Under the pieces are notes generated by a model. That model was not told the DNA's origin. It was given only the letters and a program-made list of their open reading frames with translations, and searched no databases. Source: Candidatus Micrarchaeum acidiphilum ARMAN-2 (GTDB lineage: Archaea > Micrarchaeota > Micrarchaeia > Micrarchaeales > Micrarchaeaceae). From it: a stretch of 64,000 nucleotides of DNA. The translations under genes and the position numbers were made by a program. Positions 9,967 through 39,582 of this stretch are shown here, piece after piece. The stretch lies in assembly GCA_009387755.1 (NCBI GenBank), contig GG697241.1:258921-322920 (forward strand), written 5' to 3'. Every line of letters begins with the position of its first letter. The first letter of the stretch is position 1.

Positions 9967-9982
9967 GGGGAAGTAAGTTTGC
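9967..9982 (+). other. 5' strand of 23S rRNA processing helix
   Basis: The 16 bases GGGGAAGTAAGTTTGC pair with 12825-12840 (GCAAACTTGCTTCCCC) across the whole 23S gene, with only one G-T wobble. Such helices flank archaeal 23S rRNA and host the bulge-helix-bulge cleaved by the splicing endonuclease. It also shows that both ends of the rRNA precursor are inside this window. Confidence 0.8.
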
Positions 9983-9987
9983 TTAAA

Positions 9988-12818
9988 TTTTAAACCACCT
10001 AGCGGATGGCTAGGCTATAGCAACGATGAAGGCCGTGGCAAGCTGCGATAAGCCCGGGGTAGCCGCATGTCAGGCTTTGAACCCGGGATTGCCGAATTGT
10101 ACGTAGCAATACGTATGTGTACGCGGGGAACTGAAATATCTTAGTACCCGCAGGAAAAGAAAGCGAGAGCGATGCGGTAAGTAATGCGAATGAAAGCCGC
10201 GCAGGGCAAACTGAATCCCGCCTTGCAAAAGGTGTGGAGATGTGGTGCAGCGCCGATCCAGGACATGAGCCGAACGTTATGGAAAGAGCGGCCATAGAGA
10301 GTGACAGCCTCGTAGGTTAAGTGCGATGGACCTGCTGCAAAAGAGTAATTCCGCCTTAGTATGTGGAGTGAATACGGGGGCATTAAACCCCAACCCTAAA
10401 TATTGGCTATAGACCGATAGAGAACAAGTAGCGCGAGCGAAAGCTGAAAAGAACCCACACGCGTGGGATTGAAAAGATCTGAAACTAGGTGGTGACATGC
10501 AGGTAAGGCACGAAAGGAATGATGCGCGCCGAAGCTATGCCGGAAACGGCTATGCGAGGATGCGCGGAGCAGTGTCTTACCATTCTTCTTGAAGCAAGAG
10601 CCAGGGAGTGTATAGGCGTGGCGAGCCGAAAGGCGCAGCGAAAGCGAGAGCACGCAGCATTGCGAGGTGCGGGGTATGAAAATGCCCAAGTCACGTTTAT
10701 ACGACCCGAAGCCATTGTGAACTACGCGCGCCCAAGACGAAGCTAGGTTAACGCCTGGTGGAGGTCTGCAACCTGTCATGGCATGCCCTGTTGGGTGAGG
10801 CGCGGGTAGCGGCGATATACCTTTCGAACATGGCAATAGCGGGTCCCTTCTGAAGTATCTTTAGGATAGCTCTGGGCGAGCTTGCATATGCGGTAGAGCA
10901 ACCGATTAAGGGGCATGGAGCCGAAAGGCTTCACCTCTTCGTCAAACTCCGAATGTATATGCTGTGTAGACCCCAGGAGTCGGCGATGTTGGGTAAGCTA
11001 GCATCGCGAGACTGCAAAGATAGTGACCGGGGTTAAGGTCCCCAAATCCTAGTTGAGTGTATCAAAGGCGAGAAGTACCATAGACAGCTGGGAGGTAGGC
11101 TCAGAAGCAGCCATCCTTCAAAAAACGCGTAATAGCGTACCAGTAGAGGTATTCCTTACCGAAAATATACGGGGCTAAGCTAGGTACCGAGACCTCGGAG
11201 TGCGATAAGCACTGGTAAGAAGGCGTGCGGCATGGCAAGAAGTATGTCCGAAAGGACATATGGACCGTGTCGCAGAGAATATCCTGGTGTTAGTATCATC
11301 AAATATGGGTGAGAATCCCATACACCGTAAGCACACGGGTTTCTTCGCAACGCTCGTCAGCGGAGAGTTAGGCGATCCTAAGCCGCAGGCCAATCACCAT
11401 GCGGCAAAAGGGAAGCTGGTTAATATTCCAGCCCCTAACAGGTAGGCGTGGCAACACAAGGCAGATTTCTGACGCTTGGGGATAGGTCCGCAAGAAAGTG
11501 CAAAGGGCTGCAGAGTCTCGTTATGAGGAGAAGCAGCTAAATGAACTGTTGGACTGATTTCTTGAGCCCGTGAAAAGGGAATCTGCAACGATCCTGTTAG
11601 ACCGTACCTAGAACTAGTACAAGTGTTGCTGGCTTAAAAGGCCAAGGTGTGACGGAGTAACCTAGGTTAGGGAATTCGGCAAAATAGTGGCGTAAGTTTT
11701 CGACAAGCCATGTCTGCGTATAGTATGCGCAGATAGCATTAACAAGGGAACAACGACTGTTTATCAAAAACACAACTCACCGCAAAGCCGTAAGGCTTAG
11801 TACAGTGGGTGACGCCTGCTCACCGCCAGTACGTGAACACCCTTTTCAAGGGGGATAAGCGCTGGCAAAGAGCGGGAGTAACTCTGACTCTCTTAAGGTA
11901 GCGTAATACCTCGTCACTTAATAGGTGACTTGCATGAATGGCGTAACGATTGTTCCACTGTCCCAACCTAGGGTCCGGTGAACTCACTGCGCGGTGAATA
12001 TGCCGCGATCCTCCAGTGGGAAATGAAGTCTCTATGAAGCTTGACTACAGCCTGTAGTTGTTGTGTAGTTAGTTATGCATAGCGTAAGTGGGAGCGTCGA
12101 TGTCTGGGCTTAGGCCCAGGCGGAGCGACAATGTAACACCACTCATAGCTTGCTCCACAGCTAACCCGAGAGGGAACATCTGCAGGTGGGTAGTTAGACT
12201 GGACGGTTACTTTCGATAAGGAAACGAAAGCGACCAACGCTCTGCTTAAGCGAGTTGGAAACTCGCTGGTAAGTGAAAAGGCAAATGCAGGGCTGACTGT
12301 GTGCTGAAAAGCGTGGCACGCAGACTGGAAACAGGGGCTTAACGAACGTTGGTAGCTCTTTTAATGGGGCTCCAAGCTGTCAAACAAGTTACTCTAGAGG
12401 TAACCGATTCGTCGCCGGTGAGAGTCCGCATCGACCTGGCGCATTGATACATCGATATGGGCTTGGGTTATCCTGGCAGTGTACAAGCCGCCAAGGGTTG
12501 GGCTGTACGCCCATTAAAAACCCACATGAGCTGCGTTCAGTACGTCGCGAGACAGTACGGTAATATCTACTGGAGGTGTTAGTGCCGGAGGATAAGATCC
12601 CTTTAATACGAGAGGAACGAGGGATCGGCGCCACTGGTGTACCGGTTGTGATTGCATTGCCGGGTAGCTACGCGCCAAATGGATAAGTCCTGAAAGCATC
12701 TAAGGACGAAGCTATACCCGAAACGAGGCACTATGGGCGGTCGCAATAGACGACTTCGATAGGACGGGTGCGTAAGCAGAGAGCTCACGCGATCTGTGAA
12801 CATTCCGTTACTAAAGCC
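9988..12818 (+). rRNA. rrl: 23S ribosomal RNA
   Basis: Archaeal large-subunit rRNA of about 2.83 kb; the ends are estimated from the flanking processing helix (plus or minus ~10 nt). Landmarks: 5' CCACCTAGCGGATGGCT, the thiostrepton/GTPase-centre region near 11100-11150 (CAGAAGCAGCCATC, CGTAATAGCG), the domain IV TAACGATTGTTCCACTGTCC block (~11944), A-loop hairpin GGGCTGTACGCCC (~12500), GCGAGACAGTACGG (~12547) and sarcin-ricin loop TACGAGAGGAAC (~12607). No intron is apparent. Several positions that are almost universally fixed are changed (see findings). There is no 16S, 5S or spacer tRNA next to it, so the gene is unlinked. Reading frames inside it are meaningless. Confidence 0.96.
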
Positions 12819-12824
12819 TAATTA

Positions 12825-12850
12825 GCAAACTTGCTTCCCCGCTTTTTTTG
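12825..12850 (+). terminator. 3' strand of 23S processing helix followed by T-run
   Basis: GCAAACTTGCTTCCCC (12825-12840) pairs with 9967-9982. It is followed at once by GC and a run of seven T (12843-12849), a plausible archaeal termination signal for the rRNA transcript. Confidence 0.7.
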
Positions 12851-28228: not shown

Positions 28229-28329
28229 CCCGTTGTAGCTCAATGGCAGAGCGGCCGGCTGTAGTTTGCTGACAATAAAAGTCTCATTGAGATACCGGCA
28301 GGTTGGGCGTTCGACTCGCCCCAACGGGA
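28229..28329 (+). tRNA. tRNA-Tyr (GTA) with a 29-nt intron
   Basis: Acceptor CCCGTTG (28229-28235)/CAACGGG (28322-28328), discriminator A. D-arm GCTC/GAGC, T-arm GGGCG-TTCGACT-CGCCC. Anticodon stem GCCGG (28254-28258)/CCGGC (28295-28299); the loop begins CTGTAG, giving GTA at 28261-28263. The interval is 36 nt instead of 7, so an intron of about 29 nt lies at about 28265-28293, the canonical 37/38 site. Confidence 0.92.
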
Positions 28330-39057: not shown

Positions 39058-39582
39058 ATGGCTGAAATAGAAATACCAAAAGATGTAAACGTCTCAGTGG
39101 AAGGCAATACGGTCACTGTCAAGGGAAAGCTCGGCAGCAATACAAGGCCGTTCAATGACGCCTTGCTTAGCGTCGCCATCAATCAGGGAAGGCTAAAGAT
39201 CGAGAGTGTAAAATCAAACAAAAAGCTCGCCAAGAAGGCGCAGAATGCCATAACCTCGTTTTCAAAAGAGGTTCAGACCGACATGAAAGGGACCAACGAA
39301 TACTTCGAAGTCAGGATGGAGGCAATCTCAGCGCACTTTCCTATGTCCCTAGAGACCAAGGGCGACACGCTACTGATCAAAAACATATTCGGCGAGAGGG
39401 CTCCAAGGCCTGCCAAGATAGCTGGCTCTACAAAAGTGGAGATAAAGGACAAGGCTCTGAGGATATACGGAACCAAGCTCGAGGACGTGATGCAGACATC
39501 CGCAAACATACGAAAGGCATGCAAGGCCAGAAACAAGGACGAGAGGATATTCCAAGACGGGATATACTACTCACTAAACTGA
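39058..39582 (+). CDS. rpl6: Ribosomal protein uL6
   Basis: 174 residues. EIPKDVNVSVEGNTVTVKGKLG N-terminal repeat, second domain around LLIKNIFGERAPRPAKIAGS and TSANIRKACKARNKDERIFQDGIYY, as in archaeal uL6. Lies near the GTPase centre and sarcin-ricin loop, which is of interest given the odd loop in this genome's 23S. Confidence 0.95.
   Translation: MAEIEIPKDVNVSVEGNTVTVKGKLGSNTRPFNDALLSVAINQGRLKIESVKSNKKLAKKAQNAITSFSKEVQTDMKGTNEYFEVRMEAISAHFPMSLETKGDTLLIKNIFGERAPRPAKIAGSTKVEIKDKALRIYGTKLEDVMQTSANIRKACKARNKDERIFQDGIYYSLN

Follow-up and report, generated by a model that had tools for sequence, protein, structure and literature searches.

Introduction

Bases of the P-loop, the peptidyl transferase centre (PTC) ring and the sarcin-ricin loop (SRL) of 23S rRNA are regarded as almost invariant across all life, and the bulged G of the SRL is a recognition element for sarcin-type toxins. 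In bacteria, single changes at G2251-G2253 of the P-loop are lethal or damaging (PMC4665369), and a pyrimidine at position 2655 is lethal in E. coli (PMC4176186). Structures place a Mg2+ ion between the SRL, at G2655, and the EF-G residues Asp20/Arg59 (PMC4176186). The same Asp (Asp22, Thermus numbering) is crucial for GTP hydrolysis, and a switch-I Ile forms a hydrophobic gate (PMC6562825).

Some departures from these bases are already known. A survey of archaeal A-loops found UU to be almost universal outside Thermoproteota, where U2554C/U2555C variants are tied to heat; Micrarchaeota were not mentioned (PMC9976906). Drug-resistant PTC mutants of Thermus carry C2452U, U2500A/C, A2453G or G2505A, one at a time (PMC7345174). 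A PTC survey whose 118 archaea included one member of the Nanoarchaeota removed ten divergent sequences, judging them likely to be errors (PMC7459865). Our literature search, which did not extend to subscription papers or preprints, found nothing joining Micrarchaeota, 23S rRNA and peptidyl transferase; given that limit, earlier notice is not excluded.

Here we describe a 23S rRNA gene from a 64,000-nucleotide stretch of a Micrarchaeota genome (hereafter the window). Like other archaeal LSU rRNAs (RF02540), it is a full-length homologue with the same secondary structure, the catalytic A2451 and the tRNA-contacting G2553, U2585 and A2602. It differs in that, across its order, the P-loop is one G shorter and positions 2062, 2453, 2505, 2507, 2582, 2655 and others are altered. 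The order shares with Thermoproteota a natural change of the A-loop, C2554 being also its majority state, but its A-loop variants are tied to PTC base 2582 in acidophiles and come with many further PTC changes. The bases altered in the Thermus mutants are altered here too; those mutants, however, are laboratory singles in an otherwise canonical PTC, whereas the order combines many such changes, and they are fixed.

A single, intact 23S rRNA gene

The gene lies at positions 9978-12833 of the window, on the forward strand. It matches RF02540 with 2327.5 bits (cmscan; gathering cut-off 50), complete over model positions 1-2987. By score over the full model it belongs to the family, although it departs from the canonical GGGGC P-loop and from universal PTC and SRL bases. 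As the family is defined by homology, its membership stands, and we regard the gene as a derived member. Its closest relative is 99.7% identical in 23S.

The first-pass annotation had noted that a second, canonical 23S gene would make this one a pseudogene. No such copy was found in the genome itself (96.6% complete, 8 contigs), where there is a single match (contig C8), and five single-contig genomes of the order (G009, G010, G021, G034 and G051) carry one 23S each. The gene is enclosed by a 17-nt inverted repeat, 94% complementary, with its 5' arm at 9967-9983 and its 3' arm at 12824-12840 (both given on the forward strand), which we take to be the usual archaeal precursor-processing stem. 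Helix pairs covary (see below), which argues that the RNA is functional. The sole copy, the covarying paired columns and the processing stem mark it as a functional gene; as far as sequence can tell, selection maintains it as a working rRNA, and its presence in active 50S subunits is inferred.

Elsewhere in the window, a 101-nt tRNA at 28229-28329 is matched by Rfam and missed by ARAGORN; it probably contains an intron.

Altered bases in the catalytic centre and the sarcin-ricin loop

Positions were numbered with E. coli K-12 rrlB as a ruler and with the RF02540 covariance-model alignment of the 3' third. Alignments differ in the P-loop, where MAFFT sets the gap at 2258 and the covariance model, which we used, at 2250-2253; this lowers the count of deviating PTC positions from 11 to 10, and E. 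coli numbering within H80 depends on the placement. Folding H80 and the SRL as single strands was uninformative, both motifs being non-canonical.

The P-loop (H80, 12200-12206, +) reads UGGACGG, one G shorter than UGGGGCGG, with both tRNA-pairing Gs kept; in the DNA, TGGACGG is one base short of TGGGGCGG, and the cmscan gap falls in the same place. The PTC strand 2444-2456 (12396-12408, +) carries A2448G, A2453C (12405), G2455A and C2456U (12408), and the strand 2495-2510 (12447-12462, +) carries G2495A (12447), C2499A, G2505A (12457) and C2507G (12459). In the A-loop (H92, 12501-12511, +), U2555A lies at 12507 beside canonical U2552 and G2553, and the H90/PTC strand CTGCGTTCAG (12530-12540, +) has G2582C at 12534. 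The SRL, AATACGAGAGGAAC (12605-12618, +), has G2655A at 12606 and C2666A at 12617. The PTC/exit-tunnel base A2062 is U (12029, +). Canonical bases remain at A2450, A2451, C2452, U2506, G2553, G2583, U2585 and A2602.

An alignment made by eye had already reported G2655A, the shortened P-loop with its A, U2555A, G2505A, C2507G and G2582C, with A2450, A2451, C2452, G2553 and the A2602 region normal. Both the rrlB numbering and the covariance-model alignment bear out each of these readings and rule out an error of register. To that list we add A2062U, A2453C, C2456U with G2495A, A2448G, C2499A and C2666A, of which A2448G, C2499A and C2666A are class-wide changes and not specific to the order.

Distribution across the order

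A pattern of 22 bases, taken from the altered PTC strand, was scanned against 84,980 named genomes. Matches were essentially confined to Micrarchaeota, cultured Ca. Micrarchaeum A_DKE (NZ_CP060530) included, apart from a few mislabelled contigs. One contig filed as a Planctomycetota MAG (L158, JAGWZR010000042.1) carries a Micrarchaeota 23S and is misbinned, and 'Marsarchaeota' contigs L090, L123, L132 and L146 are likewise Micrarchaeota. A match on a Chloroflexi contig (L144) has no 23S similarity and was set aside as chance.

The order was represented by 103 unique sequences, 78 of them full-length and 69 unselected for the motif, with complete cultured genomes from A_DKE (G051) and Mia14 (G010; circular, 952,257 bp, PMC5498576). 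Among the 69 unselected sequences, C2507G occurs in 67, G2505A and A2453C in 66 each, A2062U in 54 (A in 16/16 class outgroups), U2554C in 49, and U2555A and C2452U in 10 each. Base 2582 is A in 47 and C in 20; base 2655 is A in 53, G in 15 and U in one (ATTACGAGAGGAAC in L014 of G016). The P-loop is shortened throughout, reading UGG(A/G)CGG or CGGGUGG in 103/103, against UGGGGCGG (GGGGC) in all 16 class outgroups. At nearly all positions altered in the order, the canonical bases are found in sister families as well as in haloarchaea and bacteria. Judged from these genomes, the changes define the whole Micrarchaeota order, A_DKE and Mia14 included. Because GG is always kept, we infer that the shortened P-loop is still able to make both pairs with tRNA C74 and C75; what it cannot form is the closing pair G2250-C2254, which leaves a loop of three bases.

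Several members and neighbours of the order have peculiarities of their own. The basal single-contig genome G034 (L032) combines G2447A and C2452U with an A-loop (CUGAAG) that is shorter by one base. The class outgroups (other families, L058-L076 among them) have A2503C in the PTC in 16/16, a departure separate from those of the order, and several have 23S introns. Bin G011 holds two different full-length 23S genes of similar coverage (L003 on C33, L023 on C35), which may reflect a mixed bin or two operons (MAG bins can mix species); L023 has the ancestral bases at 2505, 2507, 2582 and 2554 together.

That the altered bases are an artefact, whether of misassembly or of a decayed gene whose canonical counterpart has been missed, is scarcely credible given this distribution. 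For the window's own genome taken alone, incomplete and in contigs, a missing copy is not excluded. The same states, however, occur in about 100 species-level genomes and in the five single-contig ones, paired columns covary, the processing stem is intact, and the complete cultured genomes refute the idea. Chance and sequencing error are excluded by the recurrence of these states in the 69 unselected sequences and in two complete cultured genomes. The first-pass view that a functional RNA has here an unusually derived catalytic centre is supported by single copy, order-wide conservation, a strong covariance-model score, the processing stem and strongly covarying helices.

Covariation and linked bases within the 23S rRNA

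The clearest covarying pair is 2066-2444, which is U-A or C-G in 78/78 full-length sequences of the order and switches together in 8/8 independent tree pairs (sign test p = 0.008; trees were built with short searches). Watson-Crick pairing is likewise kept throughout at 2054-2615, 2025-2038, 2461-2489, 1388-1399 and 1316-1336. A candidate pairing of 2500 with 2455 was dropped, as it reflected only a clade difference.

The pair 2507-2582 is less simple. It had been proposed that C-G became G-C by compensation, and this is what the window has; it holds for 23/78 full-length sequences of the order. It fails elsewhere: the majority state is G.A (53/78), with A-U in one sequence (G020) and the ancestral C-G in another, so that general Watson-Crick compensation is rejected and the first-pass argument from this swap is only partly right. 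Base 2582 instead goes with base 2554. A2582 is accompanied by C2554 in 53/53 sequences and C2582 by U2554 in 20/23, and of five independent tree pairs none is opposed. By inference, positions 2507, 2582 and 2554 seem to be linked components of the A-site wall.

Rates across the rRNAs and enrichment at the catalytic centre

As a yardstick, we took the 1009 positions of 23S rRNA that are constant in E. coli, Deinococcus, five haloarchaea (represented by five plasmid-borne 23S genes) and nine class outgroups. Of these positions, 103 are altered in the order (107 before the P-loop gap was corrected). In the PTC ring with the A- and P-loops, 10 of 43 universal positions depart (odds ratio 2.8, p = 0.008). 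In 16S rRNA, for which there were fewer reference sequences, the order departs at 99 of 970. There is thus a general acceleration and, on top of it, a modest enrichment at the catalytic centre; because the 23S and 16S rates are similar and the enrichment is modest, part of the change is attributable to general acceleration. In helix h44 of 16S rRNA, 1406-1495 has gone from U.U to C-G and 1404-1497 from C-G to U-A, and G530, A1492 and A1493 are kept. The 16S gene of the window's genome (C7:315079-317081, L241) is unlinked to the 23S; it exceeds the model length by about 500 bases, likely owing to an intron, as in Mia14 and ARMAN-2.

Several altered sites (A2062, C2452, A2453, U2500, G2505, the A-loop, the P-loop, the bulged G of the SRL and h44 1406/1495, where the order's C-G replaces U.U) are sites of drugs or toxins. 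The order might therefore have escaped ribosome inhibitors or toxins of a neighbour or host. C2452U and U2500A do give resistance to PTC drugs in Thermus, and G2505A has been isolated as a chloramphenicol resistance mutation, yet G2505A and U2500C gave no tiamulin resistance there (PMC7345174). Functional centres are drug sites, moreover, so the overlap is to be expected; no producer or drug is known, and changes without a drug role (2456-2495 and many helices) arose alongside. We consider adaptive escape improbable.

Elongation factor 2 and other partner proteins

Matching changes were sought in aEF-2, uL3 and uL6, partners named in the first-pass annotation, and aEF-2 gave a strong positive. 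The aEF-2 of the window's genome, encoded outside the window (C8:60568-62706, L295), has AHVHHGKT and RRMTI. It scores 971 bits against TIGR00490 (curated cut-off 738.45) and so belongs to archaeal EF-2 by score. Proteins of the order are full-length and have the identical domain order, but they fail the motif test for the Asp of G1 DHGK and for switch-I RGITI. In 91 of 94 order genomes the G1 motif reads AHVHHGKT instead of AHVDHGKT, and in the same 91 RGITI has given way to RRMTI, RKMTI or a close variant; the remaining three have RGITI. Class outgroups have the Asp in 21/21 and RGITI in 20/21, with RSMTI in one. In terms of E. coli EF-G, as deduced from sequence, Asp20 is replaced by His, Gly60 by Arg or Lys and Ile61 by Met, with Arg59 preceding. 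The aEF-2 of the order is altered at further sites too.

In the EF-2 tree the three unaltered exceptions (G022, G048 and G127) branch together as sister to the rest of the order, which suggests that the change arose once. EF-1A keeps the Asp in 11 of 12 sequences checked and aIF5B in 3/3; its loss is accordingly, within this sample, specific to the translocase. In the EF-1A of G035 (L330, C3:215400-217000), the motif is GHIAHGKST, with Ala for the invariant Asp.

A His at the same G1 position is known from Snu114/EFTUD2, the spliceosomal paralogue of EF-2 (human GHLHHGKT). The resemblance ends there: Snu114 serves the spliceosome and not the SRL, the human protein keeps RG in switch I (RGVGI), and the micrarchaeal protein is the cell's translocase. 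A Snu114-like identity was rejected, since the best solved relatives are archaeal EF-2s. For Micrarchaeota together with elongation factor 2, only a DPANN review and a nanohaloarchaea study were found, again without subscription papers or preprints; replacement of the Asp and switch I across the order is new here, and earlier notice is not excluded.

In the His clade, every sequence with Lys at the Gly60 position has a base other than A at 2655 (8/8), and Arg goes with A2655 in 46/50 (Fisher p = 2.6e-7). On the tree this amounts to four changes, with three concordant independent pairs, none opposed and one tie, and the sign test is not significant. That the switch-I Lys/Arg tracks base 2655 is therefore suggestive only. 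A strict rule by which A2655 drives Asp20His was rejected: His stands alongside G2655 in G034, G035 and others, and Asp alongside A2655 in G127.

The tip motif of uL3, GYHxRT in the class (His in 9/9 sequences with a readable motif), is GFNYRT or a near variant, Asn replacing His, in 18/19 members of the order. In uL6 (39061-39567, +), tested as the partner on the SRL side, no order-specific change was found at a class-invariant contact.

These partner data bear on whether the changes are coupled at all. Accelerated drift in a small, host-dependent population, fixing mildly deleterious changes throughout rRNA and factors, could have altered the PTC, the SRL and EF-2 coincidentally, uncoupled beyond ordinary helix compensation. 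About 10% of the reference-universal positions are altered in both 23S and 16S, the stem branch of the order is long (0.28 in the 23S tree, 0.32 in the EF-2 tree), and aEF-2 has changed elsewhere as well, all of which such drift would produce. It does not readily explain why EF-2 has changed exactly at switch I and at the Asp that faces the SRL, with EF-1A and aIF5B remaining canonical, why Lys/Arg tracks 2655 and 2582 tracks 2554, or why PTC positions are over-represented and the derived states stable over the whole order. We regard uncoupled drift as possible but unlikely.

Discussion

As read from the alignments, near-invariant bases of the P-loop, PTC ring, A-loop and SRL have been replaced on the stem of the order and within it; the aEF-2 residues facing the SRL have been replaced order-wide, and the uL3 tip near the PTC has changed too. 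We think it probable, without regarding the matter as settled, that the window encodes the sole functional 23S rRNA, with SRL/EF-2 and PTC rewired and mutually compensated, and that this reflects compensation after accelerated evolution and not loss of function.

In the mechanism that we infer, the Asp20/Arg59-Mg2+-SRL bridge at G2655 would be replaced by cationic His20 and Arg/Lys60. Loss of the ion bridge would relax the demand for G at 2655, which could then drift to A; the preference for A or G there (53 A, 15 G, 1 U) fits the purine requirement seen in E. coli (PMC4176186). Without the Asp, the switch II His could suffice for GTP hydrolysis, or His20 could take part. The PTC changes may likewise compensate one another in a network of this kind. 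Accelerated evolution in a host-dependent lineage with a reduced genome, followed by compensation, would be the likely driver. The fuller proposal is that the whole order has swapped the supposedly invariant Asp-Mg2+ contact, through which the SRL activates the translocase GTPase, for an EF-2-specific His/Arg(Lys) contact, and that its P-loop of four bases and a remodelled A-site wall belong to the same mutually compensated arrangement; this is plausible and offered only tentatively.

An entire lineage thus appears to run a rewired ribosome, for which no structure or biochemistry exists. Conservation surveys that drop divergent PTC sequences (PMC7459865), and primers or probes designed on 'universal' sites, may miss such lineages. 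A cultured lineage with many such changes and a matching change in the catalytic motif of EF-2 is a natural experiment in what the ribosome core really requires and in how its parts can be exchanged together.
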